From Rhynochetos jubatus (taxonomy: Eukaryota > Chordata > Aves > Eurypygiformes > Rhynochetidae): a stretch of 64,000 bases of DNA. Both the position numbers and the translations under genes were made by a program. Where the stretch lies: NCBI GenBank assembly GCA_027574665.1, contig CM050659.1:16159001-16223000 (forward strand). Direction: 5' to 3'. Shown piece after piece: positions 1 through 64,000 of this stretch (its first letter is position 1; every line of letters begins with the position of its first letter). The notes under the pieces were generated by a model that did no database searches, was not told the DNA's origin, and worked only from the letters and a program-made list of their open reading frames with translations.

Positions 1-171
1 GCCCACAGCTCCAGGGATAATTGGGATTGCAAAGGCCTGCCAAGAGGAGCACGACACTGCACAGACATGGCTCCTTCCCCAGCTTTCCTAGCCAGAAGCC
101 GGGCGGGGCTGTGGCCAGAAACCGCGGTCGGCAACTTCTAGGGTTAGGGTTAGGGTCCGGAGAACCAGAAA

Positions 172-348
172 GCCCACAGCTCCAGGGATAATTGGGATTG
201 CAAAGGCCTGCCAAGAGGAGCACGACACTGCACAGACATGGCTCCTTCCCCAGCTTTCCTAGCCAGAACCCAGGGGGGGCCGTGGCCGGAAACCGCGGTC
301 GGCAACTTCTAGGGTTAGGGTTAGGGTTAGGGTCCGGAGAACCAGAAA
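172..348 (+). repeat. Representative 177-bp monomer
   Basis: This unit shows the parts in order. First comes a CpG-poor segment of about 50 bp from GCCCACAGCT through GGATAATTGGGATTG to CCAAGAGGAG, which hardly varies in the array. Next is GCACGACACTG and a CA[A/C/G]GACATGG site. Then follows TTCCCC[A/T]GCTTTCC, a main A/T subtype position. A poly-G tract lies in ACCC[A/G]GGGGGGGCC. A CpG-dense segment contains GCCGTGGCCGG and the palindrome ACCGCGGT. Then GGCAA[C/G]TTCTAGGG leads into the telomeric hexamers, and TCCGGAGAACCAGAAA closes the unit. This copy has CTAGGG plus three TTAGGG, the commonest state, and seven CpG sites; two more sites are CpG in other subtypes. The unit length is 59 x 3 bases, so reading frame is preserved across units. 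Confidence 0.95.
309..332 (+). other. Telomere-repeat block, canonical G-quadruplex motif (typical copy)
   Basis: The block is CTAGGG followed by three TTAGGG, so it has four GGG runs separated by three-base loops. That is the minimal human-telomere-type G-quadruplex pattern. It also contains YTAGGGTTA sites of the kind bound by the Myb domains of TRF1 and TRF2. The same four-hexamer block recurs in most units, about every 177 bp, so the array holds a few hundred evenly spaced motifs. Folding or shelterin binding is inferred from motif identity only. Confidence 0.9.
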
Positions 349-1015
349 GCCCACAGCTCCAGGGATAATTGGGATTGCAAAGGCCTGCCAAGAGGAGCAT
401 GACACTGCACAGACATGGCTCCTTCCCCTGCTTTCCTAGCCAGAACCCAGGGGGGGCTGTGGCCGGAAACCATGGTTGGCAACTTCTAGGGTTAGGGTTA
501 GGGTTAGGGTCCGGAGAACCAGAAAGCCCACAGCTCCAGGGATAATTGGGATTGCAAAGGCCTGCCAAGAGGAGCATGACACTGCACAGACATGGCTCCT
601 TCCCCAGCTTTCCTAGCCAGAACCCAGGGGGGGCCGTGGCCGGAAACCGCGGTCGGCAACTTCTAGGGTTAGGGTTAGGGTTAGGGTCCAGAGAACCAGA
701 AAGCCCACAGCTCCAGGGATAATTGGGATTGCAAAGGTCTGCCAAGAGGAGCACGACACTGCACAGACATGGCTCCTTCCCCAGCTTTCCTAGTCAGAAC
801 CCGGGGGGGGCCGTGGCCGGAAACCGCGGTCGGCAACTTCTAGGGTTAGGGTTAGGGTTAGGGTCGGGAGAACCAGAAAGCCCACAGCTCCAGGGATAAT
901 TGGGATTGCAAAGGCCTGCCAAGAGGAGCACGACACTGCACAGACATGGCTCCTTCCCCTGCTTTCCTAGCCAGAACCCGGGGGGTCTGTGGCCGGAAAC
1001 CGCGGCCGGCAACTT

Positions 1016-1027
1016 CTAGGGTTAGGG
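1016..1027 (+). repeat. Shortest telomeric block, two hexamers
   Basis: Only CTAGGG plus one TTAGGG remain, giving a 165-bp unit. It is followed by GGGTCCGAAG in place of GGGTCCGGAG and preceded by a CGCGGCCGGC variant. The same three-part signature occurs at 10878, within the duplicated block at 9.7-12.1 kb. Confidence 0.95.
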
Positions 1028-3424
1028 TCCGAAGAACCAGAAAGCCCACAGCTCCAGGGATAATTGGGATTGCAAAGGCCTGCCAAGAGGAGCACGACAC
1101 TGCACCGACATGGCTCCTTCCCCTGCTTTCCTAGCCAGAACCCGGGGGGGGCCGTGGCTGGAAACCGCGGTCGGCAACTTCTAGGGTTAGGGTTAGGTTT
1201 AGGGTCTGGAGAACCAGAAAGCCCACAGCTCCAGGGATAATTGGGATTGCAAAGGCCTGCCAAGAGGAGCACGACACTGCACCGACATGGCTCCTTCCCC
1301 TGCTTTCCTAGCCAGAACCCGGGGGGTCCGTGACCGGAAACCGCGGTCGGCAACTTCTAGGGTTAGGGTTAGGGTCCGGAGAACCAGAAAGCCCACAGCT
1401 CCAGGGATAATTGGGATTGCAAAGGCCTGCCAAGAGGAGCACGACACTGCACAGACATGGCTCCTTCCCCTGCTTTCCTAGCCAGAACCTAGGGGGGGCC
1501 GTGGCCGGAAACCGCGGTCGGCAACTTCTAGGGTTAGGGTTAGGGTTAAGGTCCGGAGAACCAGAAAGCCCACAGCTCCAGGGATAATTGGGATTGCAAA
1601 GGCCTGCCAAGAGGAGCACGACACTGCACCGACATGGCTCCTTCCCCAGCTTTCCTAGCCAGAACCCAGGGGGGGCCGTGGCCGGAAACCGCGGTCGGCA
1701 ACTTCTAGGGTTAGGGTTAGGGTTAGGGTCCGGAGAACCAGAAAGCCCACAGCTCCAGGGATAATTGGGATTGCAAAGGCCTGCCAAGAGGAGCACGACA
1801 CTGCACAGACATGGCTCCTTCCCCTGCTTTCCTAGCCAGAACCTAGGGGGGGCCGTGGCCGGAAACCGCGGTCGGCAACTTCTAGGGTTAGGGTTAGGTT
1901 TAGGGTCCGGAGAACCAGAAAGCCCACAGCTCCAGGGATAATTGGGATTGCAAAGGCCTGCCAAGAGGAGCACGACACTGCACCGACATGGCTCCTTCCC
2001 CTGCTTTCCTAGCCAGAACCCGGGGGGTCTGTGGCCGGAAACCGCGGTCGGCAACTTCTAGGGTTAGGGTTAGGGTTAGGGTCCGGAGAACCAGAAAGCC
2101 CACAGCTCCAGGGATAATTGGGATTGCAAAGGCCTGCCAAGAGGAGCACGACACTGCACAGACATGGCTCCTTCCCCAGCTTTCCTAGCCAGAACCCTTG
2201 GGGGGCCATGCCCAGAAACCGCGGTCAGGAACTTCTAGGGTTAGGGTTAAGGTTAGGGTCCGGAGAACCAGAAAGCCCACAGCTCCAGGGATAATTGGGA
2301 TTGCAAAGGCCTGCCAAGAGGAGCACGACACTGCACAGACATGGCTCCTTCCCCTGCTTTCCTAGCCAGATCCCAGGGGGGGCCGTGGCCGGAAACCGCG
2401 GTCGGCAACTTCTAGGGTTAGGGTTAGGGTTAGGGTCCGGAGAACCAGAAAGCCCACAGCTCCAGGGATAATTGGGATTGCAAAGGCCTGCCAAGAGGAG
2501 CACGACACTGCACCGACATGGCTCCTTCCCCTGCTTTCCTAGCCAGAACCCGGGGGGGGCCATGGCCGGAAACCGCGGTCGGCAACTTCTAGGGTTAGGG
2601 TTAGGGTCCGGAGAACCAGAAAGCCCACAGCTCCAGGGATAATTGGGATTGCAAAGGCCTGCCAAGAGGAGCACGACACTGCACCGACATGGCTCCTTCC
2701 CCAGCTTTCCTAGCCAGAACCCGGGTGGGGCCGTGGCCGGAAACCGCGGTCGGCAACTTCTAGGGTTAGGGTTAGGGTTAGGGTCCGGAGAACCAGAAAG
2801 CCCACAGCTCCAGGGATAATTGGCATTGCAAAGGCCTGCCAAGAGGAGCACGACACTGAACAGACATGGCTCCTTCCCCAGCTTTCCTAGCCAGAACCCG
2901 GGGGGGGCCGTGGTCGGAAACCGCGGTCGGCAACTTCTAGGGTTAGGGTTAGGGTTAGGGTCCGGAGAACCAGAAAGCCCACAGCTCCAGGGATAATTGG
3001 GATTGCAAAGGCCTGCCAAGAGGAGCACGACACTGCACCGACATGGCTCCTTCCCCAGCTTTCCTAGCCAGAACCCGGGGGGGGCCATTCCCAGAAACCG
3101 CGGTCGGCAACTTCTAGGGTTAGGGTTAGGGTCCGGAGAACCAGAAAGCCCACAGCTCCAGGGATAATTGGGATTGCAAAGGCCTGCCAAGAGGAGCACG
3201 ACACTGCACAGACATGGCTCCTTCCCCAGCTTTCCTAGCCAGAACCCAGGGGGGGCCATGCCCAGAAACCGCGGTCGGCAACTTCTAGGGTTAGGGTTAG
3301 GGTTAGGGTCCGGAGAACCAGAAAGCCCACAGCTCCAGGGATAATTGGGATTGCAAAGGCCTGCCAAGAGGAGCACGACACTGCACAGACATGGCTCCTT
3401 CCCCAGGTTTCCTAGCCAGAACCC

Positions 3425-3433
3425 GGGGGGGGG
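3425..3433 (+). repeat. Longest poly-G tract, nine G
   Basis: The G tract after AACCC is usually seven or eight bases (CCCA + 7 G or CCC + 8 G). It reaches nine here and near 8724, 16999, 34102, 56637 and 62439. Six-base and shorter forms occur in TCTGTGG and GACCGTGG units. These 1-bp changes are what shift or end the long spurious open frames. Confidence 0.9.
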
Positions 3434-4170
3434 CCTTGGCCGGAAACCGCGGTCGGCAACTTCTAGTGTTAGGGTTAGGGTTAGGGTCCGGAGAACCAGA
3501 AAGCCCACAGCTCCAGGGATAATTGGGATTGCAAAGGCCTGCCAAGAGGAGCACGACACTGCACAGACATGGCTCCTTCCCCAGCTTTCCTAGCCAGAAC
3601 CCAGGGGGGGCCGTGGCCGGAAACCGCGGTCGGCAAGTTCTAGGGTTAGGGTTAGGGTTAGGGTCCGGAGAACCAGAAAGCCCACAGCTCCAGGGATAAT
3701 TGGGATTGCAAAGGCCTGCCAAGAGGAGCACGACACTGCACCGACATGGCTCCTTCCCCAGCTTTCCTAGCCAGAACCCAGGGGGGGCCATGGCCGGAAA
3801 CCGCGGTCGGCAACTTCTAGGGTTAGGGTTAGGGTTAGGGTCCGGAGAACCAGAAAGCCCACAGCTCCAGGGATAATTGGGATTGCAAAGGCCTGCCAAG
3901 AGGAGCACGACACTGCACCGACATGGCTCCTTCCCCAGCTTTCCTAGCCAGAACCCGGGGGGGGCCGTGGCCGGAAACCGCGGTCGGCAACTTCTAGGGT
4001 TAGGGTTAGGGTTAGGGTCCGGAGAACCAGAAAGCCCACAGCTCCAGGGATAATTGGGATTGCAAAGGCCTGCCAAGAGGAGCACGACACTGCACCGACA
4101 TGGCTCCTTCCCCTGCTTTCCTAGCCAGAACCCGGGGGGGGCCGTGGCCGGAAACCGTGGTCGGCAACTT

Positions 4171-4200
4171 CTAGGGTTAGGGTTAGGGTTAGGGTTAGGG
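4171..4200 (+). repeat. Expanded telomeric block, five hexamers
   Basis: CTAGGG plus four TTAGGG, one of four expanded blocks seen. It gives a 183-bp unit. A unit with the same expansion and the same CCGTGG and CGTGGTCGG markers lies 7915 bp downstream at 12086, which suggests the two are copies of one ancestral expansion. Confidence 0.95.
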
Positions 4201-4216
4201 TCCGGAGAACCAGAAA

Positions 4217-5807
4217 GCCCACAGCTCCAGGGATAATTGGGATTGCAAAGGCCTGCCAAGAGGAGCACGACACTGCACAGACATGGCTCCTTCCCCAGCT
4301 TTCCTAGCCAGAACCCAGGGGGGGCCGTCGCCGGAAATCGCGGTCGGCAACTTCTAGGGTTAGGGTTAGGGTTAGGGTCCGGAGAACCAGAAAGCCCACA
4401 GCTCCAGGGATAATTGGGATTGCAAAGGCCTGCCAAGAGGAGCACGACACTGCACCGACATGGCTCCTTCCCCTGCTTTCCTAGCCAGAACCCGGGGGGT
4501 CTGTGGCCGGAAACCGCGGTCGGCAACTTCTAGGGTTAGGGTTAGGGTTAGGGTCCGGAGAACCAGAAAGCCCACAGCTCCAGGGATAATTGGGATTGCA
4601 AAGGCCTGCCAAGAGGAGCACGACACTGCACAGACATGGCTCCTTCCCCAGCTTTCCTAGCCAGAACCTGCGGGGGGCCGTGGCCGGAAACCGCGGTCGG
4701 CAACTTCTAGGGTTAGGGTTAGGGTTAGGGTCCGGAGAACCAGAAAGCCCACAGCTCCAGGGATAATTGGGATTGCAAAGGCCTGCCAAGAGGAGCACGA
4801 CACTGCACAGACATGGCTCCTTCCCCTGCTTTCCTAGCCAGAACCCAGGGGGGGCCGTGGCCGGAAACCGTGGTCGGCAACTTCTAGGGTTAGGGTTAGG
4901 GTTAGGGTCCGGAGAACCAGAAAGCCCACAGCTCCAGGGATAATTGGGATTGCAAAGGCCTGCCAAGAGGAGCAAGACACTGCACAGACATGGCTCCTTC
5001 CCCTGCTTTCCTAGCCAGAACCCGGGGGGACCGTGGCCGGAAACCGCGGTCGGCAACTTCTAGGGTTAGGGTTAGGGTTAGGGTCCGGAGAACCAGAAAG
5101 CCCACAGCTCCAGGGATAATTGGGATTGCAAAGGCCTGCCAAGAGGAGCACGACACTGCACAGACATGGCTCCTTCCCCAGCTTTCCTAGCCAGAACCCA
5201 GGGGGGGCCATGCCCAGAAACCGCGGTCAGCAACCATTAGGGTTAGGGTTAGGGTTAGGGTCCGGAGAACCAGAAAGCCCACAGCTCCAGGGATAATTGG
5301 GATTGCAAAGGCCTGCCAAGAGGAGCACGACACTGCACAGACATGGCTCCTTCCCCTGCTTTCCTAGCCAGAACCCAGGGGGGGCCGTCGCCGGAAACCG
5401 CGGTCGGCAACTTCTAGGGTTAGGGTTAGGGTTAGGGTCCGGAGAACCAGAAAGCCCACAGCTCCAGGGATAATTGGGATTGCAAAGGCCTGCCAAGAGG
5501 AGCACGACACTGCACAGACATGGCTCCTTCCCCTGCTTTCCTAGCCAGAACCCAGGGGGGGCCGTGGCCGGAAACCGCGGTCGGCAACTTCTAGGGTTAG
5601 GGTTAGGGTTAGGGTCCGGAGAACCAGAAAGCCCACAGCTCCAGGGATAATTGGGATTGCAAAGGCCTGCCAAGAGGAGCACGACACTGCACCGACATGG
5701 CTCCTTCCCCTGCTTTCCTAGCCAGAACCCGGGGGGGGCCGTGGCCGGAAACCGTGGTCGGCAACTTCTAGGGTTAGGGTTAGGGTTAGGGTCCGGAGAA
5801 CCAGAAA
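4217..5807 (+). repeat. Left higher-order repeat, copy 1 (nine units, 1591 bp)
   Basis: Nine monomer subtypes occur in a fixed order. They are a GTCGCCGGAAATCG unit (4331), a six-G TCTGTGG unit, an ACCTGCGGGG unit (about 4666), a CCGTGG/CGTGGTCGG unit, an AGCAAGACAC unit with GGGGGGACCG (about 5023), an ATGCCCAG unit with CAACCATTAGGG (5231), a GTCGCCGG unit, a CCGTGGCCGG unit and a further CGTGGTCGG unit. The next copy begins exactly 1591 bp on, two bases short of nine 177-bp units because two units have short G tracts. Confidence 0.88.
5231..5240 (+). repeat. CAACCATTAG junction variant 1
   Basis: The usual CAACTTCTAG leading into the telomeric block is replaced by CAACCATTAG, together with GGTCAGC in place of GGTCGGC. 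This removes the CTAGGG first hexamer and makes it ATTAGGG, so the telomeric block has one more perfect TTAGGG. The others are at 8933, 12970, 13678 and 16153. Confidence 0.95.
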
Positions 5808-40441: not shown

Positions 40442-42230
40442 AACCCAGGGCTGGCCGTGGCCGGAAACCGCGGTCGGCAACTTCTAGGGTTAGGGTTAGG
40501 GTTAGGGTCCGGAGAACCAGAAAGCCCACAGCTCCAGGGATAATTGGGATTGCAAAGGCCTGCCAAGAGGAGCACGACACTGCACCGACATGGCTCCTTC
40601 CCCTGCTTTCCTAGCCAGAACCCGGGGGGGGCCGTGGCCGGAAACCGCGGTCGGCAACTTCTAGGGTTAGGGTTAGGGTCCGGAGAACCAGAAAGCCCAC
40701 AGCTCCAGGGATAATTGGGATTGCAAAGGCCTGCCAAGAGGAGCACGACACTGCACAGACATGGCTCCTTCCCCAGCTTTCCTAGCCAGAACCCAGGGGG
40801 GGCCATGCCCAGAAAGCGCGGTCGGCAACTTCTAGGGTTAGGGTTAGGGTTAGGGTCCGGAGAACCAGAAAGCCCACAGCTCCAGGGATAATTGGGATTG
40901 CAAAGGCCTGCCAAGAGGAGCACGACACTGCACAGACATGGCTCCTTCCCCTGCTTTCCTAGCCAGAACCCAGGGGGGGCCGTGGCTGGAAACCGCGGTC
41001 GGCAACTTCTAGGGTTAGGGTTAGGGTTAGGGTCCGGAGAACCAGAAAGCCCACAGCTCCAGGGATAATTGGGATTGCAAAGGCCTGCCAAGAGGAGCAC
41101 AACACTGCACAGACATGGCTCCTTCCCCAGCTTTCCTAGCCAGAACCCGGGGGGGCCATGCCCAGAAACCGCGGTCGGCAAGTTCTAGGGTTAGGGTTAG
41201 GTTTAGGGTCCGGAGAACCAGAAAGCCCACAGCTCCAGGGATAATTGGGATTGCAAAGGCCTGCCAAGAGGAGCACGACACTGCACAGACATGGCTCCTT
41301 CCCCTGCTTTCCTAGCCAGAACCCAGGGGGGGCCATGCCCGGAAACCGCGGTTGGCAACTTCTAGGGTTAGGGTTAGGGTTAGGGTCCGGAGAACCAGAA
41401 AGCCCACAGCTCCAGGGATAATTGGGATTGCAAAGGCCTGCCAAGAGGAGCACGACACTGCACAGACATGGCTCCTTCCCCTGCTTTCCTAGCCAGAACC
41501 CAGGGGGGGCCGTCGCCGGAAACCGCGGTCGGCAACTTCTAGGGTTAGGGTTAGGGTTAGGGTCTGGAGAACCAGAAAGCCCACAGCTCCAGGGATAATT
41601 GGGATTGCAAAGGCCTGCCAAGAGGAGCACGACACTGCACAGACATGGCTCCTTCCCCTGCTTTCCTAGCCAGAACCCGGGGGGGGCCGTGGCCGGAAAC
41701 CGCGGTCGGCAACTTCTAGGGTTAGGGTTAGGGTTAGGGTCCGGAGAACCAGAAAGCCCACAGCTCCAGGGATAATTGGGATTGCAAAGGCCTGCCAAGA
41801 GGAGCACGACACTGCACCGACATGGCTCCTTCCCCTGCTTTCCTAGCCAGAACCCAGGGGGGGCCATGCCCGGAAACCGCGGTCGGCAACTTCTAGGGTT
41901 AGGGTTAGGGTTAGGGTCCGGAGAACCAGAAAGCCCACAGCTCCAGGGATAATTGGGATTGCAAAGGCCTGCCAAGAGGAGCACGACACTGCACCGACAT
42001 GGCTCCTTCCCCAGCTTTCCTAGCCAGAACCCAGGGGGGGCCATGCCCAGAAACCGCGGTTGGCAACTTCTAGGGTTAGGGTTAGGGTTAGGGTCCGGAG
42101 AACCAGAAAGCCCACAGCTCCAGGGATAATTGGGATTGCAAAGGCCTGCCAAGAGGAGCACGACACTGCACAGACATGGCTCCTTCCCCTGCTTTCCTAG
42201 CCAGAACCCGGGGGGGGCCGTGGCCGGAAA
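40442..42230 (+). repeat. 11-unit tandem duplication, right copy
   Basis: Direct repeat of 38501-40441. It ends near 42.23 kb, where the right copy has a three-hexamer block and is followed by a CAAAACCCAGG unit instead of AGGGCTGGCC. One A/T difference in TTCCCC[A/T]GC near 41.66 kb separates the copies. Confidence 0.85.
40524..41401 (+). repeat. Right-family module, full five-unit copy (878 bp)
   Basis: Same order as 38583-39461, 1941 bp downstream. One G is missing from the poly-G tract of the fourth unit. GGTTTAGGG lies at 41201. Confidence 0.9.
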
Positions 42231-42988
42231 CCGCGGTCGGCAACTTCTAGGGTTAGGGTTAGGGTCCGGAGAACCAGAAAGCCCACAGCTCCAGGGATAA
42301 TTGGGATTGCAAAGGCCTGCCAAGAGGAGCACGACACTGCACAGACATGGCTCCTTCCCCAGCTTTCCTAGCCAAAACCCAGGGGGGGCCATGCCCAGAA
42401 ACCGCGGTTGGCAACTTCTAGGGTTAGGGTTAGGGTTAGGGTCCGGAGAACCAGAAAGCCCACAGCTCCAGGGATAATTGGGATTGCAAAGGCCTGCCAA
42501 GAGGAGCACGACACTGCACAGACATGGCTCCTTCCCCTGCTTTCCTAGCCAGAACCCGGGGGGGGCCGTGGCCGGAAACCGCGGTCGGCAACTTCTAGGG
42601 TTAGGGTTAGGGTTAGGGTCCGGAGAACCAGAAAGCCCACAGCTCCAGGGATAATTGGGATTGCAAAGGCCTGCCAAGAGGAGCACGACACTGCACCGAC
42701 ATGGCTCCTTCCCCTGCTTTCCTAGCCAGAACCCGGGGGGGGCTGTGGCCGGAAACCGCGGTCGGCAACTTCTAGGGTTAGGGTTAGGGTTAGGGTCCGG
42801 AGAACCAGAAAGCCCACAGCTCCAGGGATAATTGGGATTGCAAAGGCCTGCCAAGAGGAGCACGACACTGCACAGACATGGCTCCTTCCCCAGCTTTCCT
42901 AGCCAGAACCCAGGGCTGGCCGTGGCCGGAAACCGCGGTCGGCAACTTCTAGGGTTAGGGTTAGGGTTAGGGTCCGGAGAACCAGAAA

Positions 42989-43690
42989 GCCCACAGCTCC
43001 AGGGATAATTGGGATTGCAAAGGCCTGCCAAGAGGAGCACGACACTGCACCGACATGGCTCCTTCCCCAGCTTTCCTAGCCAGAACCCGGGGGGGGCCGT
43101 GGCCGGAAACCGCGGTCGGCAACTTCTAGGGTTAGGGTTAGGGTCCGGAGAACCAGAAAGCCCACAGCTCCAGGGATAATTGGGATTGCAAAGGCCTGCC
43201 AAGAGGAGCACGACACTGCACAGACATGGCTCCTTCCCCAGCTTTCCTAGGAAGAGCCCAGGGGGGGCCATGCCCAGAAACCGCGGTCGGCAACTTCTAG
43301 GGTTAGGGTTAGGGTTAGGGTCCGGAGAACCAGAAAGCCCACAGCTCCAGGGATAATTGGGATTGCAAAGGCCTGCCAAGAGGAGCACAACACTGCACAG
43401 ACATGGCTCCTTCCCCAGCTTTCCTAGCCAGAACCCAGGGGGGGCCATGCCCAGAAACCGCGGTCGGCAAGTTCTAGGGTTAGGGTTAGGTTTAGGGTCC
43501 GGAGAACCAGAAAGCCCACAGCTCCAGGGATAATTGGGATTGCAAAGGCCTGCCAAGAGGAGCACGACACTGCACAGACATGGCTCCTTCCCCTGCTTTC
43601 CTAGCCAGAACCCAGGGGGGGCCATGCCCGGAAACCGCGGTCGGCAACTTCTAGGGTTAGGGTTAGGGTTAGGGTCCGGAGAACCAGAAA
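42989..43690 (+). repeat. Right-family module, four-unit variant (702 bp)
   Basis: Units 1, 2, 4 and 5 of the module are present. Unit 3 (GTGGCTGG) is missing, and unit 2 carries CTAGGAAGAGCCC (43247) with normal AAACCGCGG in place of AAAGCGCGG. GGTTTAGGG lies at 43490. Confidence 0.85.
43247..43259 (+). repeat. Rare CTAGGAAGAGCCC variant, copy 1
   Basis: CTAGCCAGAACCC is changed at several positions to CTAGGAAGAGCCC. The only other instance seen is at 55916, 12669 bp away, in a different sequence context. Confidence 0.9.
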
Positions 43691-44575
43691 GCCCACAGCT
43701 CCAGGGATAATTGGGATTGCAAAGGCCTGCCAAGAGGAGCACGACACTGCACAGACATGGCTCCTTCCCCTGCTTTCCTAGCCAGAACCCGGGGGGGGCC
43801 GTGGCCGGAAACCGCGGTCGGCAACTTCTAGGGTTAGGGTTAGGGTTAGGGTCCGGAGAACCAGAAAGCCCACAGCTCCAGGGATAATTGGGATTGCAAA
43901 GGCCTGCCAAGAGGAGCACGACACTGCACAGACATGGCTCCTTCCCCAGCTTTCCTAGCCAAAACCCAGGGGGGGCCATGCCCAGAAACCGCGGTTGGCA
44001 ACTTCTAGGGTTAGGGTTAGGGTTAGGGTCCGGAGAACCAGAAAGCCCACAGCTCCAGGGATAATTGGGATTGCAAAGGCCTGCCAAGAGGAGCACGACA
44101 CTGCACAGACATGGCTCCTTCCCCTGCTTTCCTAGCCAGAACCCGGGGGGGGCCGTGGCCGGAAACCGCGGTCGGCAACTTCTAGGGTTAGGGTTAGGGT
44201 TAGGGTCCGGAGAACCAGAAAGCCCACAGCTCCAGGGATAATTGGGATTGCAAAGGCCTGCCAAGAGGAGCACGACACTGCACAGACATGGCTCCTTCCC
44301 CAGCTTTCCTAGCCAGAACCCGGGGGGGGCTGTGGCCGGAAACCGCGGTCGGCAACTTCTAGGGTTAGGGTTAGGGTTAGGGTCCGGAGAACCAGAAAGC
44401 CCACAGCTCCAGGGATAATTGGGATTGCAAAGGCCTGCCAAGAGGAGCACGACACTGCACAGACATGGCTCCTTCCCCAGCTTTCCTAGCCAGAACCCGG
44501 GGGGGTCCGTGGCCGGAAACCGCGGTCGGCAACTTCTAGGGTTAGGGTTAGGGTTAGGGTCCGGAGAACCAGAAA

Positions 44576-45454
44576 GCCCACAGCTCCAGGGATAATTGGG
44601 ATTGCAAAGGCCTGCCAAGAGGAGCACGACACTGCACCGACATGGCTCCTTCCCCTGCTTTCCTAGCCAGAACCCGGGGGGGGCCGTGGCCGGAAACCGC
44701 GGTCGGCAACTTCTAGGGTTAGGGTTAGGGTCCGGAGAACCAGAAAGCCCACAGCTCCAGGGATAATTGGGATTGCAAAGGCCTGCCAAGAGGAGCACGA
44801 CACTGCACAGACATGGCTCCTTCCCCAGCTTTCCTAGCCAGAACCCAGGGGGGGCCATGCCCAGAAAGCGCGGTCGGCAACTTCTAGGGTTAGGGTTAGG
44901 GTTAGGGTCCGGAGAACCAGAAAGCCCACAGCTCCAGGGATAATTGGGATTGCAAAGGCCTGCCAAGAGGAGCACGACACTGCACAGACATGGCTCCTTC
45001 CCCTGCTTTCCTAGCCAGAACCCAGGGGGGGCCGTGGCTGGAAACCGCGGTCGGCAACTTCTAGGGTTAGGGTTAGGGTTAGGGTCCGGAGAACCAGAAA
45101 GCCCACAGCTCCAGGGATAATTGGGATTGCAAAGGCCTGCCAAGAGGAGCACAACACTGCACAGACATGGCTCCTTCCCCAGCTTTCCTAGCCAGAACCC
45201 AGGGGGGGCCATGCCCAGAAACCGCGGTCGGCAAGTTCTAGGGTTAGGGTTAGGTTTAGGGTCCGGAGAACCAGAAAGCCCACAGCTCCAGGGATAATTG
45301 GGATTGCAAAGGCCTGCCAAGAGGAGCACGACACTGCACAGACATGGCTCCTTCCCCTGCTTTCCTAGCCAGAACCCAGGGGGGGCCATGCCCGGAAACC
45401 GCGGTCGGCAACTTCTAGGGTTAGGGTTAGGGTTAGGGTCCGGAGAACCAGAAA
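44576..45454 (+). repeat. Right-family module, full five-unit copy (879 bp)
   Basis: Five units in order: AAAGCGCGG from 44865, GTGGCTGG near 45031, CACAACACTG near 45151, GGTTTAGGG at 45254, and the ATGCCCGG unit near 45388. It differs from the 38583 copy by CCCAGGG against CCCGGGG in unit 4 and GTCGGC against GTTGGC in unit 5. Confidence 0.9.
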
Positions 45455-46162
45455 GCCCACAGCTCCAGGGATAATTGGGATTGCAAAGGCCTGCCAAGAG
45501 GAGCACGACACTGCACAGACATGGCTCCTTCCCCTGCTTTCCTAGCCAGAACCCGGGGGGGGCCGTGGCCGGAAACCGCGGTCGGCAACTTCTAGGGTTA
45601 GGGTTAGGGTTAGGGTCTGGAGAACCAGAAAGCCCACAGCTCCAGGGATAATTGGGATTGCAAAGGCCTGCCAAGAGGAGCACGACACTGCACCGACATG
45701 GCTCCTTCCCCAGCTTTCCTAGCCAGAACCCAGGGGGGGCCATGCCCAGAAACCGCGGTCGGCAACTTCTAGGGTTAGGGTTAGGGTTAGGGTCCGGAGA
45801 ACCAGAAAGCCCACAGCTCCAGGGATAATTGGGATTGCAAAGGCCTGCCAAGAGGAGCACGACACTGCACAGACATGGCTCCTTCCCCTGCTTTCCTAGC
45901 CAGAACCCGGGGGGGGCCATGGCCGGAAACCGCGGTCGGCAACTTCTAGGGTTAGGGTTAGGGTTAGGGTCCGGAGAACCAGAAAGCCCACAGCTCCAGG
46001 GATAATTGGGATTGCAAAGGCCTGCCAAGAGGAGCACGACACTGCACCGACATGGCTCCTTCCCCAGCTTTCCTAGCCAGAACCCAGGGGGGGCCATGCC
46101 CAGAAACCGCGGTCGGCAACTTCTAGGGTTAGGGTTAGGGTTAGGGTCCGGAGAACCAGAAA

Positions 46163-46870
46163 GCCCACAGCTCCAGGGATAATTGGGATTGCAAAGGCCT
46201 GCCAAGAGGAGCACGACACTGCACAGACATGGCTCCTTCCCCAGCTTTCCTAGCCAGAACCCAGGGGGGGCCATGCCCAGAAAGCGCGGTCGGCAACTTC
46301 TAGGGTTAGGGTTAGGGTTAGGGTCCGGAGAACCAGAAAGCCCACAGCTCCAGGGATAATTGGGATTGCAAAGGCCTGCCAAGAGGAGCACGACACTGCA
46401 CAGACATGGCTCCTTCCCCTGCTTTCCTAGCCAGAACCCAGGGGGGGCCGTGGCTGGAAACCGCGGTCGGCAACTTCTAGGGTTAGGGTTAGGGTTAGGG
46501 TCCGGAGAACCAGAAAGCCCACAGCTCCAGGGATAATTGGGATTGCAAAGGCCTGCCAAGAGGAGCACAACACTGCACAGACATGGCTCCTTCCCCAGCT
46601 TTCCTAGCCAGAACCCAGGGGGGGCCATGCCCAGAAACCGCGGTCGGCAAGTTCTAGGGTTAGGGTTAGGTTTAGGGTCGAGAGAACCAGAAAGCCCACA
46701 GCTCCAGGGATAATTGGGATTGCAAAGGCCTGCCAAGAGGAGCACGACACTGCACAGACATGGCTCCTTCCCCTGCTTTCCTAGCCAGAACCCAGGGGAG
46801 GCCATGCCCGGAAACCGCGGTCGGCAACTTCTAGGGTTAGGGTTAGGGTTAGGGTCCGGAGAACCAGAAA
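46163..46870 (+). repeat. Right-family module, units 2-5 (708 bp)
   Basis: The AAAGCGCGG (from 46281), GTGGCTGG, CACAACACTG/GGTTTAGGG (46670) and ATGCCCGG units are all 177 bp. The preceding unit is of ATGCCCAG type rather than the three-hexamer unit 1. Private changes: GGTCGAGAG after the GGTTTAGGG and GGGGAGGCC near 46796. Confidence 0.88.
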
Positions 46871-47329
46871 GCCCACAGCTCCAGGGATAATTGGGATTGC
46901 AAAGGCCTGCCAAGAGGAGCACGACACTGCACAGACATGGCTCCTTCCCCTGCTTTCCTAGCCAGAACCCGGGGGGGGCCGTGGCCGGAAACCGCGGTCG
47001 GCAACTTCTAGGGTTAGGGTTAGGGTTAGGGTCCGGAGAACCAGAAAGCCCACAGCTCCAGGGATAATTGGGATTGCAAAGGCCTGCCAAGAGGAGCATG
47101 ACACTGCACAGACATGGCTCCTTCCCCTGCTTTCCTAGCCAGAACCCGGGGGGGTTCGTGGCCGGAAACAGCGGTCGGCAACTTCTAGGGTTAGGGTTAG
47201 GGTTAGGGTCCGGAGAACCAGAAAGCCCACAGCTCCAGGGATAATTGGGATTGCAAAGGCCTGCCAAGAGGAGCACGACACTGCACAGACATGGCTCCTT
47301 CCCCTGCTTTCCTAGCCAGAACCCGGGGG

Positions 47330-48740
47330 GGGCCATGGCCGGAAACCGCGGTCGGCAACTTCTAGGGTTAGGGTTAGGGTTAGGGTCCGGAGAACCAGAA
47401 AGCCCACAGCTCCAGGGATAATTGGGATTGCAAAGGCCTGCCAAGAGGAGCACGACACTGCACAGACATGGCTCCTTCCCCAGCTTTCCTAGCCAGAACC
47501 CGGGGGGGGTCCGTGGCCGGAAACCGCGGTCGGCAACTTCTAGGGTTAGGGTTAGGGTTAGGGTCCGGAGAACCAGAAAGCCCACAGCTCCAGGGATAAT
47601 TGGGATTGCAAAGGCCTGCCAAGAGGAGCACGACACTGCACAGACATGGCTCCTTCCCCTGCTTTCCTAGCCAGAACCCTGGGGGGGCCGTGGCTGGAAA
47701 CCGCGGTTGGCAACTTCTAGGGTTAGGGTTAGGGTTAGGGTCCGGAGAACCAGAAAGCCCACAGCTCCAGGGATAATTGGGATTGCAAAGGCCTGCCAAG
47801 AGGAGCACGACACTGCACAGACATGGCTCCTTCCCCAGCTTTCCTAGCCAGAACCCAGGGCTGGCCGTGGCCGGAAATCGCGGTCGGCAACTTCTAGGGT
47901 TAGGGTTAGGGTTAGGGTCCGGAGAACCAGAAAGCCCACAGCTCCAGGGATAATTGGGATTGCAAAGGCCTGCCAAGAGGAGCACGACACTGCACAGACA
48001 TGGCTCCTTCCCCTGCTTTCCTAGCCAGAACCCGGGGGGGGCCGTGGCCGGAAACCGCGGTCGGCAACTTCTAGGGTTAGGGTTAGGGTCCGGAGAACCA
48101 GAAAGCCCACAGCTCCAGGGATAATTGGGATTGCAAAGGCCTGCCAAGAGGAGCACGACACTGCACAGACATGGCTCCTTCCCCAGCTTTCCTAGCCAGA
48201 ACCCAGGGGGGGCCATGCCCAGAAAGCGCGGTCGGCAACTTCTAGGGTTAGGGTTAGGGTTAGGGTCCGGAGAACCAGAAAGCCCACAGCTCCAGGGATA
48301 ATTGGGATTGCAAAGGCCTGCCAAGAGGAGCACGACACTGCACAGACATGGCTCCTTCCCCAGCTTTCCTAGCCAGAACCCAGGGGGGGCCATGCCCAGA
48401 AAGCGCGGTCGGCAACTTCTAGGGTTAGGGTTAGGGTTAGGGTCCGGAGAACCAGAAAGCCCACAGCTCCAGGGATAATTGGGATTGCAAAGGCCTGCCA
48501 AGAGGAGCACGACACTGCACAGACATGGCTCCTTCCCCTGCTTTCCTAGCCAGAACCCAGGGGGGGCCGTGGCTGGAAACCGCGGTCGGCAACTTCTAGG
48601 GTTAGGGTTAGGGTTAGGGTCCGGAGAACCAGAAAGCCCACAGCTCCAGGGATAATTGGGATTGCAAAGGCCTGCCAAGAGGAGCACGACACTGCACCGA
48701 CATGGCTCCTTCCGCAGCTTTCCTAGCCAGAACCCGGGGG
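47330..48740 (+). repeat. Eight-unit tandem duplication, left copy (1411 bp)
   Basis: Paired marks are CCATGG (about 47333/48745), a GGGTCCGTGG unit (about 47508/48919), ACCCTGGGGGGG (47677/49088), AGGGCTGGCC with AAATCG, and AAAGCGCGG (gccc at 48217/49628). The repeat unit is eight monomers, and the first follows the last without a gap. Confidence 0.88.
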
Positions 48741-55915: not shown

Positions 55916-55928
55916 CTAGGAAGAGCCC
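55916..55928 (+). repeat. Rare CTAGGAAGAGCCC variant, copy 2
   Basis: Same cluster of changes as at 43247. This unit also has CCGTGCCCAG, CGCTGTCGG and GGGAACTTC and is followed by TCTGGAG, so the flanking variants differ from copy 1. Confidence 0.9.
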
Positions 55929-57153: not shown

Positions 57154-57177
57154 CCATAACCCAGGGGGGTCCGTGTC
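57154..57177 (+). repeat. CCATAACCCAGG / CCGTGTCCGG linked variant
   Basis: CCATAACCC for CCAGAACCC is joined to a short G tract and CCGTGTCCGG. The same combination recurs at 58563 and 59094, spaced 1409 bp (eight units) and 531 bp (three units). A partial form (CCATAACCC without CCGTGTCC) occurs near 56452 and 63836. Confidence 0.88.
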
Positions 57178-57983
57178 CGGAAACCGCGGTCGGCAACTTC
57201 TAGGGTTAGGGTTAGGGTCCGGAGAACCAGAAAGCCCACAGCTCCAGGGATAATTGGGATTGCAAAGGCCTGCCAAGAGGAGCACGACACTGCACCGACA
57301 TGGCTCCTTCCCCTGCTTTCCTAGCCAGAACCCAGGGGGGGCCGTGGCCGGAAACCGCGGTCGGCAACTTCTAGGGTTAGGGTTAGGGTTAGGGTCCGGA
57401 GAACCAGAAAGCCCACAGCTCCAGGGATAATTGGGATTGCAAAGGCCTGCCAAGAGGAGCACGACACTGCACCGACATGGCTCCTTCCCCAGCTTTCCTA
57501 GCCAGAACCCAGGGGGGGCCGTGGCCGGAAACCGCGGTCGGCAACTTCTAGGGTTAGGGTTAGGGTTAGGGTCCGGAGAACCAGAAAGCCCACAGCTCCA
57601 GGGATAATTGGGATTGCAAAGGCCTGCCAAGAGGAGCACGACACTGCACCGACATGGCTCCTTCCCCAGCTTTCCTAGCCAGAACCCGGGGGGGGCCGTG
57701 GCCGGAAACCGCGGTCGGCAACTTCTAGGGTTAGGGTTAGGGTTAGGGTCCGGAGAACCAGAAAGCCCACAGCTCCAGGGATAATTGGGATTGCAAAGGC
57801 CTGCCAAGAGGAGCACGACACTGCACAGACATGGCTCCTTCCCCAGCTTTCCTAGCCAGAACCCAGGGGGGGCCATGCCCAGAATCCGTGGTCGGCAAGT
57901 TCTAGGGTTAGGGTTAGGGTTAGGGTCCGGAGAACCAGAAAGCCCACAGCTCCAGGGATAATTGGGATTGCAAAGGCCTGCCA

Positions 57984-57991
57984 AGAATAGC
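57984..57991 (+). repeat. AGAATAGC variant 1
   Basis: CCAAGAATAGCACG replaces CCAAGAGGAGCACG. The preceding unit is ATGCCCAG with CAAGTTC (here also AGAATCCGTGG), and the unit carrying the variant has a short G tract (GGGGGGTCATGG). Confidence 0.93.
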
Positions 57992-58417
57992 ACGACACTG
58001 CACCGACATGGCTCCTTCCCCAGATTTCCTAGCCAGAACCCAGGGGGGTCATGGCCGGAAACCGCGGTCGGCAACTTCTAGGGTTAGGGTTAGGGTTAGG
58101 GTCCGGAGAACCAGAAAGCCCACAGCTCCAGGGATAATTGGGATTGCAAAGGCCTGCCAAGAGGAGCACGACACTGCACCGACATGGCTCCTTCCCCTGC
58201 TTTCCTAGCCAGAACCCGCGGGGGGCCGTGGCCGGAAACCGCGGTCGTCAACTTCTAGGGTTAGGGTTAGGGTTAGGGTCCGGAGAACCAGAAAGCCCAC
58301 AGCTCCAGGGATAATTGGGATTGCAAAGGCCTGCCAAGAGGAGCACGACACTGCACAGACATGGCTCCTTCCCCTGCTTTCCTAGCCAGAACCCGGGGGG
58401 GGCCGTGTCCGGAAACC

Positions 58418-58460
58418 GCAGTCGGCAACTTCTAGGGTTAGGGTTAAGGTTAGGGTCCGG
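58418..58460 (+). repeat. CGCAGTCGG plus TTAAGG linked variant
   Basis: The CCGCGG palindrome is lost (CCGCAG) and the telomeric block contains TTAAGG. The pair recurs near 62113 and 62639 (526 bp apart, three units). The TTAAGG itself is also seen near 1546, 2248 and 11408, without the CGCAG change. Confidence 0.88.
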
Positions 58461-59575
58461 AGAACCAGAAAGCCCACAGCTCCAGGGATAATTGGGATTG
58501 CAAAGGCCTGCCAAGAGGAGCACGACACTGCACAGACATGGCTCCTTCCCCAGCTTTCCTAGCCATAACCCAGGGGGGTCCGTGTCCGGAAACCGCGGTC
58601 GGCAACTTCTAGGGTTAGGGTTAGGGTTAGGGTCCGGAGAACCAGAAAGCCCACAGCTCCAGGGATAATTGGGATTGCAAAGGCCTGCCAAGAGGAGCAC
58701 GACACTGCACCGACATGGCTCCTTCCCCTGCTTTCCTAGCCAGAACCCAGGTGGGGCCGTGGCCGGAAACCGCGGTCGGCAACTTCTAGGGTTAGGGTTA
58801 GGGTTAGGGTCCGGAGAACCAGAAAGCCCACAGCTCCAGGGATAATTGGGATTGCAAAGGCCTGCCAAGAGGAGCACGACACTGCACAGACATGGCTCCT
58901 TCCCCAGCTTTCCTAGCCAGAACCCAGGGGGGGCCATGCCCAGAAACCGCGGTTGGCAACTTCTAGGGTTAGGGTTAGGGTTAGGGTCCGGAGAACCAGA
59001 AAGCCCACAGCTCCAGGGATAATTGGGATTGCAAAGGCCTGCCAAGAGGAGCACGACACTGCACAGACATGGCTCCTTCCCCAGCTTTCCTAGCCATAAC
59101 CCAGGGGGGTCCGTGTCCGGAAACCGCGGTCGGCAACTTCTAGGGTTAGGGTTAGGGTTAGGGTCCGGAGAACCAGAAAGCCCACAGCTCCAGGGATAAT
59201 TGGGATTGCAAAGGCCTGCCAAGAGGAGCACGACACTGCACAGACATGGCTCCTTCCCCTGCTTTCCTAGCCAGAACCCAGGGGGGGCCGTGGCCGGAAA
59301 CCGCGGTCGGCAACTTCTAGGGTTAGGGTTAGGGTTAGGGTCCGGAGAACCAGAAAGCCCACAGCTCCAGGGATAATTGGGATTGCAAAGGCCTGCCAAG
59401 AGGAGCACGACACTGCACCGACATGGCTCCTTCCCCAGCTTTCCTAGCCAGAACCCAGGGGGGGCCATGCCCAGAAACCGCGGTCGGCAAGTTCTAGGGT
59501 TAGGGTTAGGGTTAGGGTCCGGAGAACCAGAAAGCCCACAGCTCCAGGGATAATTGGGATTGCAAAGGCCTGCCA

Positions 59576-59583
59576 AGAATAGC
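59576..59583 (+). repeat. AGAATAGC variant 2
   Basis: Same variant, 1592 bp (nine units) after variant 1, again following an ATGCCCAG/CAAGTTC unit and carrying GGGGGGTCGTGG. Confidence 0.93.
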
Positions 59584-60447
59584 ACGACACTGCACCGACA
59601 TGGCTCCTTCCCCAGCTTTCCTAGCCAGAACCCAGGGGGGTCGTGGCCGGAAACCGCGGTCGGCAACTTCTAGGGTTAGGGTTAGGGTCCGGAGAACCAG
59701 AAAGCCCACAGCTCCAGGGATAATTGGGATTGCAAAGGCCTGCCAAGAGGAGCACGACACTGCACCGACATGGCTCCTTCCCCAGCTTTCCTAGCCAGAA
59801 CCCGGGGGGGGCCGTGGCCGGAAACCGCGGTCGGCAAATTCTAGGGTTAGGGTTAGGGTCCGGAGAACCAGAAAGCCCACAGCTCCAGGGATAATTGGGA
59901 TTGCAAAGGCCTGCCAAGAGGAGCACGACACTGCACCGACATGGCTCCTTCCCCAGCTTTCCTAGCCAGAACCCAGGGGGGGCCGTGGCCGGAAACCGCG
60001 GTCGGCAACTTCTAGGGTTAGGGTTAGGGTTAGGGTCTGGAGAACCAGAAAGCCCACAGCTCCAGGGATAATTGGGATTGCAAAGGCCTGCCAAGAGGAG
60101 CACGACACTGCACAGACATGGCTCCTTCCCCAGCTTTCCTAGCCAGAACGCGGGGGGGGCCGTGGCCGGAAACCGCGGTCGGCAACTTCTAGGGTTAGGG
60201 TTAGGGTTAGGGTCCGGAGAACCAGAAAGCCCACAGCTCCAGGGATAATTGGGATTGCAAAGGCCTGCCAAGAGGAGCACGACACTGCACAGACATGGCT
60301 CCTTCCCCAGCTTTCCTAGCCAGAACCCAGGGGGGGCCATGCCCAGAAACCGCGGTCGGCAAGTTCTAGGGTTAGGGTTAGGGTTAGGGTCCGGAGAACC
60401 AGAAAGCCCACAGCTCCAGGGATAATTGGGATTGCAAAGGCCTGCCA

Positions 60448-60455
60448 AGAATAGC
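60448..60455 (+). repeat. AGAATAGC variant 3
   Basis: Same context, 872 bp (five units) after variant 2. This copy alone reads AGCCAAAACCC downstream. Confidence 0.93.
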
Positions 60456-61679
60456 ACGACACTGCACCGACATGGCTCCTTCCCCAGCTTTCCTAGCCAA
60501 AACCCAGGGGGGTCGTGGCCGGAAACCGCGGTCGGCAACTTCTAGGGTTAGGGTTAGGGTTAGGGTCCGGAGAACCAGAAAGCCCACAGCTCCAGGGATA
60601 ATTGGGATTGCAAAGGCCTGCCAAGAGGAGCACGACACTGCACCGACATGGCTCCTTCCCCAGCTTTCCTAGCCAGAACCCAGGGGGGGTCGTGGCCGGA
60701 AACCGCGGTCGGCAACTTCTAGGGTTAGGGTTAGGGTTAGGGTCCGGAGAACCAGAAAGCCCACAGCTCCAGGGATAATTGGGATTGCAAAAGCCTGCCA
60801 AGAGGAGCACGACACTGCACAGACATGGCTCCTTCCCCTGCTTTCCTAGCCAGAACGCAGCAGGGGCCGTGGCCGGAAACCGCGGTCGGCAACTTCTAGG
60901 GTTAGGGTTAGGGTCCGGAGAACCAGAAAGCCCACAGCTCCAGGGATAATTGGGATTGCAAAGGCCTGCCAAGAGGCGCATGACACTGCACCGACATGGC
61001 TCCTTCCCCAGCTTTCCTAGCCAGAACCCAGGGGGGGCCGTGCCCAGAAACAGCGGTCGGCAACTTCTAGGGTTAGGGTTAGGGTTAGGGTCCGGAGAAC
61101 CAGAAAGCCCACAGCTCCAGGGATAATTGGGATTGCAAAGGCCTGCCAAGAGGAGCACGACACTGCACCGACATGGCTCCTTCCCCAGCTTTCCTAGCCA
61201 GAACCCGGGCGGGGCCGTGGCCGGAAACCGCGGTCGGCAACTTCTAGGGTTAGGGTTAGGGTTAGGGTCCGGAGAACCAGAAAGCCCACAGCTCCAGGGA
61301 TAATTGGGATTGCAAAGGCCTGCCAAGAGGAGCACGACACTGCACCGACATGGCTCCTTCCCCAGCTTTCCTAGCCAGAACCCGGGGGGGGCCGTGGCCG
61401 GAAACCGCGGTCGGCAACTTCTAGGGTTAGGGTTAGGGTTAGGGTCCGGAGAACCAGAAAGCCCACAGCTCCAGGGATAATTGGGATTGCAAAGGCCTGC
61501 CAAGAGGAGCACGACACTGCACAGACATGGCTCCTTCCCCAGCTTTCCTAGCCAGAACCCAGGGGGGGCCATGCCCAGAAACCGCGGTCGGCAAGTTCTA
61601 GGGTTAGGGTTAGGGTTAGGGTCCGGAGAACCAGAAAGCCCACAGCTCCAGGGATAATTGGGATTGCAAAGGCCTGCCA

Positions 61680-61687
61680 AGAATAGC
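61680..61687 (+). repeat. AGAATAGC variant 4
   Basis: Same context, 1232 bp (seven units) after variant 3. The four copies define a pair of linked units spread through 57.9-61.9 kb. Confidence 0.93.
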
Positions 61688-64000
61688 ACGACACTGCACC
61701 GACATGGCTCCTTCCCCAGCTTTCCTAGCCAGAACCCAGGGGGGTCGTGGCCGGAAACCGCGGTCGGCAACTTCTAGGGTTAGGGTTAGGGTTAGGGTCC
61801 GGAGAACCAGAAAGCCCACAGCTCCAGGGATAATTGGGATTGCAAAGGCCTGCCAAGAGGAGCACGACACTGCACCGACATGGCTCCTTCCCCTGCTTTC
61901 CTAGCCAGAACCCAGGGGGGGCCGTGGCCGGAAACCGCGGTCGGCAACTTCTAGGGTTAGGGTTAGGGTTAGGGTCCGGAGAACCAGAAAGCCCACAGCT
62001 CCAGGGATAATTGGGATTGCAAAGGCCTGCCAAGAGGAGCACGACACTGCACCGACATGGCTCCTTCCCCTGCTTTCCTAGCCAGAACCCGGGGGTGGCC
62101 GTGGCCGGAAACCGCAGTCGGCAACTTCTAGGGTTAGGGTTAAGGTTAGGGTCCGGAGAACCAGAAAGCCCACAGCTCCAGGGATAATTGGGATTGCAAA
62201 GGCCTGCCAAGAGGAGCACGACACTGCACCGACATGGCTCCTTCCCCCGCTTTCCTAGCCAGAATTCAGGGGGGGCCATACCCAGAAACCGCGGTCGGCA
62301 ACTTCTAGGGTTAGGGTTAGGGTCCGGAGAACCAGAAAGCCCACAGCTCCAGGGATAATTGGGATTGCAAAGGCCTGCCAAGAGGAGCACGACACTGCAC
62401 CGAAATGGCTCCTTCCCCAGCTTTCCTAGCCAGAACCCGGGGGGGGGCCGTGGCCGGAAACCGCGGTTGTCAACTTCTAGGGTTAGGGTTAGGGTTAGGG
62501 TCCGGAGAACCAGAAAGCCCACAGCTCCAGGGATAATTGGGATTGCAAAGGCCTGCCAAGAGGAGCACGACACTGCACAGACATGGCTCCTTCCCCTGCT
62601 TTCCTAGCCAGAACCCGGGGGGGGCCGTGTCCGGAAACCGCAGTCGGCAACTTCTAGGGTTAGGGTTAAGGTTAGGGTCCGGAGAACCAGAAAGCCCACA
62701 GCTCCAGGGATAATTGGGATTGCAAAGGCCTGCCAAGAGGAGCACGACACTGCACCGACATGGCTCCTTCCCCTGCTTTCCTAGCCAGAACCCGGGGGGG
62801 GCCGTGCCCAGAAACCGCGGTCGGCAACTTCTAGGGTTAGGGTTAGGGTCCGGAGAACCAGAAAGCCCACAGCTCCAGGGATAATTGGGATTGCAAAGGC
62901 CTGCCAAGAGGAGCACGACACTGCACAGACATGGCTCCTTCCCCAGCTCTCCTAGCCAGAACCCAGGGTGGGCCATGCCCAGAAACCGCGGTTGGCAACT
63001 TCTAGGGTTAGGGTTAGGGTTAGGGTCCGGAGAACCAGAAAGCCCACAGCTCCAGGGATAATTGGGATTGCAAAGGCCTGCCAAGAGGAGCACAACACTG
63101 CACAGACATGGCTCCTTCCCCTGCTTTCCTAGCCAGAAACCAGGGGGGGCCGTGGCCGGAAACTGGGGTTGGCAAATTCTAGGGTTAGGGTTAGGGTTAG
63201 GGTCCGGAGAACCAGAAAGCCCACAGCTCCAGGGATAATTGGGATTGCAAAGGCCTGCCAAGAGGAGCACGACACTGCACCGACATGGCTCCTTCCCCAG
63301 CTTTCCTAGCCAGAACGCAGGGGGGGCCGTGGCCGGAAACCGCGGTCGGCAACTTCTAGGGTTAGGGTTAGGGTTAGGGTCCGGAGAACCAGAAAGCCCA
63401 CAGCTCCAGGGATAATTGGGATTGCAAAGGCCTGCCAAGAGGAGCACGACACTGCACAGACATGGCTCCTTCCCCAGCTTTCCTAGCCAGAACCCGGGGG
63501 GGGCCGTGGCCGGAAACCGCGGTCGGCAACTTCTAGGGTTAGGGTTAGGGTCCGGAGAACCAGAAAGCCCACAGCTCCAGGGATAATTGGGATTGCAAAG
63601 GCCTGCCAAGAGGAGCACGACACTGCACCGACATGGCTCCTTCCCCAGCTTTCCTAGCCAGAACCCAGGGGGGGCCATGCCCAGAAACCGCGGTCGGCAA
63701 CTTCTAGGGTTAGGGTTAGGGTTAGGGTCCGGAGAACCAGAAAGCCCACAGCTCCAGGGATAATTGGGATTGCAAAGGCCTGCCAAGAGGAGCACGACAC
63801 TGCACAGACATGGCTCCTTCCCCAGCTTTCCTAGCCATAACCCAGGGGGGGCCGTCGCCGGAAACCGCGGTCGGCAACTTCTAGGGTTAGGGTTAGGGTT
63901 AGGGTCCGGAGAACCAGAAAGCCCACAGCTCCAGGGATAATTGGGATTGCAAAGGCCTGCCAAGAGGAGCACGACACTGCACCGACATGGCTCCTTCCCC

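Follow-up and report, generated by a model that had tools for sequence, protein, structure and literature searches.

In birds the TTAGGG motif is sometimes part of a larger satellite (PMC7348932, citing Liangouzov et al.), and a TTAGGG-bearing satellite of the chaffinch, Fringilla coelebs, has been reported (Liangouzov et al., 2002, Russ J Genet 38:1359; cited in PMC10887557, PMC7348932 and PMC12111239) which, going by the title of that paper, is likewise a bird satellite whose monomers hold short TTAGGG clusters. The subject of this analysis is a satellite with a unit of 177 base pairs (bp), including a short telomeric tract, that fills a stretch of 64,000 nucleotides of contig C14 (hereafter the window). 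This kind of satellite is already known in birds and the present one could be identical to that of the chaffinch; no 177-bp bird satellite of this kind was noticed in the excerpts of the literature searched, and a search with six substrings of the unit and a search of titles and abstracts, outside which most subscription papers fall, found no published description of the unit sequence. We read it, with a probability of roughly 0.65, as a centromeric or pericentromeric satellite common to the smaller chromosomes of a bird-like genome, with a putative centromere role.

Properties of other described systems also recur here, as far as the available excerpts of the cited sources describe them. For example, CNM-type repeats (chicken CNM, turkey TM, quail CJA-BglII and others) are mainly microchromosomal and are taken as homogenised between microchromosomes (PMC6435179), so they share with the present satellite a small-chromosome distribution and homogenisation across chromosomes, although the chicken CNM unit is 41 bp and the present one is 177 bp with TTAGGG; the homogenisation found here resembles the 'chromosome size-correlated' pattern of bird microchromosome repeats (PMC6435179). 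In rodents and marsupials TTAGGG is taken as a native satellite component (PMC9693754), and in such heterochromatic interstitial telomeric sequences (PMC9693754, PMC7348932) it is, as here, part of a satellite and not a fusion scar; in the present satellite every 177-bp unit has a single tract of about 23 bp, and the window contains no long TTAGGG block. The Cen191 satellite of the great bustard, which lies at one end of microchromosomes (PMC10354230), has a unit of similar, nucleosome-like length (191 bp; compared by description, not by sequence), and it occurs on 38 of 40 bustard chromosomes, whereas no large array of the present satellite was seen on the largest contigs.

The array and its unit

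Tandem Repeats Finder returned the whole window as a single tandem array (period 177, 363.5 copies, 95% matches, 1% indels), and a split anchored on the telomeric tract recovered 362 head-to-tail units of 150-200 bp, in agreement with an earlier note on this DNA that had counted about 360 units of about 177 bp filling 64 kb. The 362-unit split resolves units that were left fused in two first splits (8 of 353 intervals in one and 11 of 348 in the other, leaving 337 units for alignment). The features discussed below are as follows, in window coordinates.

1..64000, + strand: part of the array of 177-bp units, of which it holds about 362 (C14:16159001-16223000, inside an array of about 1.42 Mb)
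162..338, + strand: example unit of 177 bp in the consensus register, in which GAACCAG... starts at position 1 (direct reading and consensus)
162..221, + strand: unit positions 1-60, a nearly invariant block (minor-base frequency averaging 0.0014 in 362 units)
222..306, + strand: variable half, unit positions 61-145 (minor-base frequency 0.0235 at 61-100 and 0.0486 at 101-145)
310..332, + strand: telomeric tract TAGGG(TTAGGG)3, with four GGG runs (direct reading)

On the + strand of the window TTAGGG occurs 1013 times, compared with about 13 expected from base composition, CCCTAA has 0 occurrences, and the longest pure TTAGGG run listed by Tandem Repeats Finder is 5 copies, which bears out the earlier description of an array without a long pure tract. 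The commonest unit lengths are 177, 171, 176 and 178 bp, and the 171/177/183 ladder mostly reflects one hexamer gained or lost. The first split gave 353 intervals, of which 259 contain three full TTAGGG copies, 74 two, 8 four and 4 one, while the remaining 8, which span two or three units, hold six or eight; the 'two to five hexamers' of the earlier note is right if the leading TAGGG is counted, full copies being mostly three or two per interval. The form GGG(TTAGGG)3, that is, four GGG runs, has 278 matches in the window. The array is satellite DNA in the sense of a long, homogenised, head-to-tail array of one unit: units differ by 4% on average, no higher-order period was found at lags of 1-40 units within the window, and the mean difference of 3.75-4.3% over these lags shows neighbours to be no closer to each other than distant units. 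These observations support the earlier view of a vertebrate-type satellite with an integral TTAGGG cluster, present as a large block.

Variation is unevenly distributed along the unit, with mean minor-base frequencies in 362 units of 0.0014 at positions 1-60, 0.0235 at 61-100, 0.0486 at 101-145 and 0.0065 at 146-177, the segment that holds the tract. The low value at 146-177 is favoured by the anchoring of this split on the tract, and an alignment anchored on positions 1-45 (337 units) gave 0.0086 there and 0.0008 at 1-60. When CpG sites were excluded from these 337 units, columns with at least three variant units numbered 2 of 60 at positions 1-60 versus 25 of 73 at 61-145 (Fisher p 6e-6), and 7 of 30 at 146-177. 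Five further samples of C14, as well as 74 units of other contigs and 21 of dispersed arrays, likewise show less variation at positions 1-60 and 146-177 than at 61-100 and 101-145; the order inside each pair shifts, so that 146-177 is lowest in two C14 samples and 61-100 exceeds 101-145 in other contigs. The unit can therefore be described as a conserved stretch of about 92 bp (the tract plus the 60-bp block) and, after it, a variable half measuring about 85 bp. Between consensuses of the young subfamily and those of the middle subfamily, locus L042 and the oldest subfamily, identity is 60, 49 and 44 of 60 at positions 1-60, and 36, 32 and 26 of 40 at 61-100; at 101-145 it is 41 of 44, 17 of 45 and 18 of 45, which marks this least-kept segment as the one of long-term turnover. 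No earlier description of a near-invariant 60-bp block adjoining the tract was found, and it may surprise specialists.

The consensus unit holds 7 CpG, so the earlier term 'CpG-rich' stands as a count per unit; it fails as a ratio, since the window has 2461 CpG compared with 5632 expected (0.44) and CpG sites change more often than others, with transitions at 7.0% of CpG sites versus 0.3% at other G/C. This excess suggests germline methylation. No full NFI site was found in the unit, and the half-site TGCCAA occurs once per unit.

Other functions of the array were also considered. Open reading frames on the minus strand reach 2166 amino acids and are most simply mechanical, because 177 = 3 x 59 preserves the frame; the longest, at window 41136-47636, is a trap for gene finders. 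A structured RNA was rejected, with no Rfam match in the first 3 kb of the window, and the predicted single-strand DNA fold of one unit is unremarkable (z = 0.41).

Distribution, homogenisation and polarity

The assembly comprises 1,331,379,947 bases in 148 contigs, and a 28-mer of the unit has 54,337 exact copies in it and 99,328 with at most 3 mismatches (the reversed-pattern control gave 0 in both searches). The host is probably a bird, judging by the size of the assembly, by contigs that range from 148.6 Mb down to a few Mb and less, by a TTAGGG telomere and by a CR1-like tail at L041; a search for mitochondrial COX1 found no match. At 177 bp, about 99,000 units amount to about 17.6 Mb, or about 1.3% of the assembly; within the window the exact 28-mer is present in 357 copies in about 362 units. 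A rare tract variant with at least 5 TTAGGG has 69 matches, all of them on C11, C13, C14, C16, C19-C24, C27 and C28 and on four small contigs (C55, C122, C125 and C128), with 0 of the 69 on C1-C10. The eight largest contigs, C1-C8, measure 148.6 to 42.6 Mb, and the next two, C9 and C10, are short pieces (0.32 and 0.24 Mb). Among the exact 28-mer matches listed in contig order, 11 precede C11 and are scattered over C2, C4, C6 and C8. By the rare-variant census and the 28-mer matches listed, large arrays thus lie on small and not on large chromosomes: they were found only on contigs of at most 34.9 Mb, and none was found on the eight largest.

Units are also homogenised between non-homologous chromosomes, with a mean difference of 3.3% within contigs and 3.6% between them (165 units, from 18 samples of other arrays together with C14 samples; at most 15 units per sample, those for the window coming from its first 20 kb). 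Because the sampling sites on other contigs were mostly next to rare long-tract units, the unit lengths found there are biased. The samples that stand apart in the between-contig comparison are those of C11 (5.5 and 5.9%), C22 (6.8%) and one of two from C16 (6.1%).

The arrays are of single orientation and occupy one region on 9 of the 12 placed contigs and two regions on C11, C19 and C22. The two C11 blocks, with matches at 8.76-9.02 and 13.73-13.81 Mb and a non-satellite sample between them at 11.0 Mb (L066), differ by 4.1% from each other and by 5.5 and 5.9% from other contigs. The sequence GGCATTGC is present in 4 of 5 unit copies from the first C11 block (L065) and in 0 of 5 from the second (L067). 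On C19, + arrays lie at both contig ends (0.01-0.29 Mb and 20.47-20.60 Mb), possibly as a misjoin or a second array, and on C22 satellite occurs at 10 kb in addition to the internal array. Satellite is present on C20 from about 6 kb of the contig end, and the first 300 bases of that contig (L105, C20:1-300) are a minisatellite of GC 0.77 and of type GGCGGGGCTTAAGGGGCGAGGG, not a telomere.

The TTAGGG strand follows a common polarity. It is the minus strand on C11, C13, C16, C20, C22 and C24, where the array lies in the left half of the contig, and the plus strand on C14, C21, C23, C27 and C28, where the array lies in the right half; the plus arrays at both ends make C19 the sole exception. Of the 12 contigs, 11 therefore have their G-rich strand reading towards the closer end and one (C19) is mixed, which makes 13 of 14 array places, a score that is independent of how contigs are turned (two-sided sign test, 0.001 without C19 and 0.006 with C19 counted as a miss). 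The 46 exact-flank tract matches on placed contigs concur in strand, but these contigs are identical to those tested. No earlier description of a shared polarity was found, and it is a result that specialists may not expect.

On C14 (25.96 Mb) the array spans about 1.42 Mb, judged from the window and samples, from 16.1011 Mb to a point between 17.5149 and 17.5250 Mb, so it is larger than the earlier note had it, although satellite does fill the entire window as described. Its left edge consists of a 1.4-kb block at 83-99% consensus identity, 1.1 kb without satellite, units at 79-86% identity and then the homogeneous part; satellite, always +, fills the window and all nine samples taken from 16.149 to 17.5149 Mb, and samples at 17.525 Mb and beyond contained none. 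The array has 16.1 Mb of contig before it and 8.4 Mb after it, and the distances from the window to the two contig ends are 16.2 and 9.7 Mb. A true telomere was rejected for the window, since its longest run is 5 hexamers and it lies 9.7 Mb from the nearest contig end, so that it is not a long terminal array. The left end of C14, after 5 kb of N, does carry a telomere, which mixes TTAGGG and TTCGGG (printed as CCCTAA/CCCGAA; L023 5001-6400). A subtelomeric tandem repeat with a GC-rich unit, unrelated to the satellite, follows it (L023 6400-7770) and contains GCATGCCGGGAACTGTAGT, which resembles the ZNF143/THAP11 site.

A second subtype of the unit is recognised by its own 36-mer, with 18,045 exact copies; those among the matches listed fall within the arrays of C13 and C14 or cluster on C20, and second-subtype units (0 or 1 mismatch) occur at array edges on C14, C20, C22, C23 and C28. 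Isolated single copies of it at C16:11.97 and C19:6.52 Mb were excluded from the array counts. Genome-wide, units with exact flanks have 0, 1, 2 or 3 extra hexamers after TAGGG in 0, 50, 3,388 and 36,096 cases, respectively (counts cover n=0-3, and these flanks embrace fewer than half of the 99,328 units), so that in these units four GGG runs are the typical state of the tract, and no bare TAGGG was seen. No earlier description of this tract pattern was found either. The monomers thus hold short TTAGGG clusters in the window (1013 TTAGGG in about 362 units) and throughout the genome (36,096 units with TAGGG(TTAGGG)3). An intact four-run G-quadruplex is not universal, because the tract is degenerate (CTAGGG, AGCG) in the second-subtype units that were read.

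Dispersed relatives

Short arrays of about 68-90% identity to the unit are scattered on C1 and C2, and there are more on C4, C6 and C8. The earlier note had set a block of this kind against hybridisation to dispersed single-copy loci, and here both parts have some truth: large arrays are present, yet short, diverged arrays of the family are scattered on large contigs. Of the 11 loci L034-L044, which were picked by TTAGGGTTAGGG, 8 hold the unit, the exceptions being L041, L043 and L044. Among the eight loci L001-L008, which overlap in part, there was no match to the unit at 1e-5. The TTAGGG in dispersed arrays on C1 and C2 proves nothing, because these loci were found through TTAGGG. An unbiased set of 8 loci on C2, C4, C6 and C8 was picked by the 28-mer instead, and all 8 hold TTAGGG, from which it follows that the family was probably telomere-bearing before its amplification and that it also exists as small pieces.

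The array of about four units at L035 (C1:58635001-58636200) has a 27-bp direct duplication at its flanks (25 of 27 identical) and telomeric tract at both its own ends, and it looks as though it had been inserted at a staggered break. Target-site duplication was rejected as a general rule, with this one 27-bp case and one 10-bp candidate among 13 arrays that have both flanks (two further arrays in the survey had one flank only). Locus L041 (C2:6239201-6240100) is a different TTAGGG-rich tandem repeat, with no match to the unit outside the telomeric motif, and it adjoins an element tail that we take to be CR1-like.

Competing explanations and their meaning

The unit is of roughly nucleosome length (177 bp), with a short telomeric tract as a native part beside the 60-bp near-invariant block. 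If the preferred reading is right, the arrays would be heterochromatin with methylated CpG, located at centromeres or next to them, and non-homologous small chromosomes would keep them alike through exchange. Such exchange, if by crossing-over, would tolerate only one orientation relative to the chromosome arm, with the opposite orientation giving dicentrics, and we propose that the strand reads towards the nearer end because crossing-over between non-homologous arrays is survivable only when both are oriented alike with respect to the centromere. The 92-bp or so of conserved sequence is most simply a putative protein-binding site, of which the telomeric tract, with its TRF-type Myb sites, may be one part. 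The short, diverged arrays on large chromosomes suggest an old family that was telomere-bearing before it was amplified.

Several points weigh against a centromeric or pericentromeric satellite common to the small chromosomes. Its centromeric and heterochromatic nature is inferred from position, array size and sequence, the polarity is post hoc in that it was tested on the data that suggested it, and a scheme of one array for one centromere is not clean, because of the arrays at both ends of C19, the extra satellite on C22 and the two blocks on C11. Some small chromosomes may lack the satellite, because ten contigs (C12, C15, C17, C18, C25, C26, C29, C30, C32 and C35) are negative in samples and census: 0 of 20 samples of 200 bp, taken 150 kb from either end, hold satellite, and these contigs are absent from the rare-variant census. 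No CENP-B core box was found in the unit with at most 2 mismatches (there is one with 3). Between the youngest and oldest consensus, positions 1-60 (44 of 60) are little better kept than 61-100 (26 of 40), and the low variation at 1-60 could reflect a local conversion hotspot, which would explain this sequence pattern as well as binding-site constraint would. In addition, the tract has a higher majority frequency than the rest of the unit in the oldest dispersed group (0.905 versus 0.811) and is not better kept in two others (0.731 versus 0.873 and 0.817 versus 0.838); since it is better kept in one of three groups only, selection on the tract is not claimed from dispersed arrays.

A different origin for the polarity is offered by the possible, if unlikely, alternative that the arrays are short-arm or subtelomeric heterochromatin and not kinetochore sites, in a family that arose beside acrocentric telomeres and kept their orientation, later gain of short arms or inversion having made it internal on C11, C13, C14, C16, C22, C24 and C27. 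TTAGGG is itself the motif of chromosome ends, the polarity of the arrays is that of a real telomere, and descent from chromosome ends would yield an identical polarity picture. The satellite on C20, C21, C23 and C28 and at both ends of C19 lies within about 0.7 Mb of a contig end (by the matches and samples seen), and it begins at about 6 kb on C20 and about 10 kb on C22, the latter lending slightly less weight to a centromeric or pericentromeric position and slightly more to a subtelomeric one. However, the internal arrays on the seven contigs lie 2.6-9.8 Mb from the nearer end (13.7 Mb for the second C11 block), that of C14 is 1.42 Mb long at an internal place, and the left telomere of C14 adjoins a different subtelomeric repeat, with no unit in the 5 kb read there. 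The subtelomeric setting suggested by the earlier note thus suits arrays near the ends of C19, C20, C21, C23 and C28 and not the window, which is 9.7 Mb from the nearest end. It is more doubtful that the system is a telomere-coded centromere, in which the 92-bp stretch would be selected as a TRF/shelterin-type platform or a four-run G-quadruplex and the polarity towards the short-arm end would be needed for exchange and pairing among the centromeres of small chromosomes.

Two further explanations have little probability. Internal TTAGGG on several chromosomes might be expected of a chromosome-fusion relict, that is, an interstitial telomere at a fusion point amplified with its flanking DNA, but head-to-head telomeres are lacking (0 CCCTAA) and no run exceeds 5 hexamers in the window, an identical complex 177-bp unit recurs on 12 placed contigs, and diverged family members already have the tract between units; a fusion scar or latent telomere is disfavoured by the structure of the tract, and we consider this origin very improbable. 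An assembly artefact, with reads collapsed or expanded or arrays placed on wrong chromosomes, would fit the arrays at both ends of C19 and the several arrays on small unplaced contigs. Against it, units differ by 4% on average, the left edge of the C14 array runs through diverged units into unique DNA, and second-subtype units recur at array edges on C14, C20, C22, C23 and C28, so that we give this explanation the smallest chance of those considered.

If the preferred reading of a centromeric or pericentromeric satellite holds, small bird-like chromosomes share a satellite with two to three full telomere hexamers per unit, and the approximately 99,000 units would contribute on the order of 0.2-0.3 million interstitial hexamers. 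Such a satellite might take up telomere-binding proteins on a large scale, and it would mislead measurements of telomeres by fluorescence in situ hybridisation or quantitative PCR in such species. The polarity of the arrays and their near-invariant block bear on the likeness of microchromosome centromeres and on the function of interstitial telomeric DNA.

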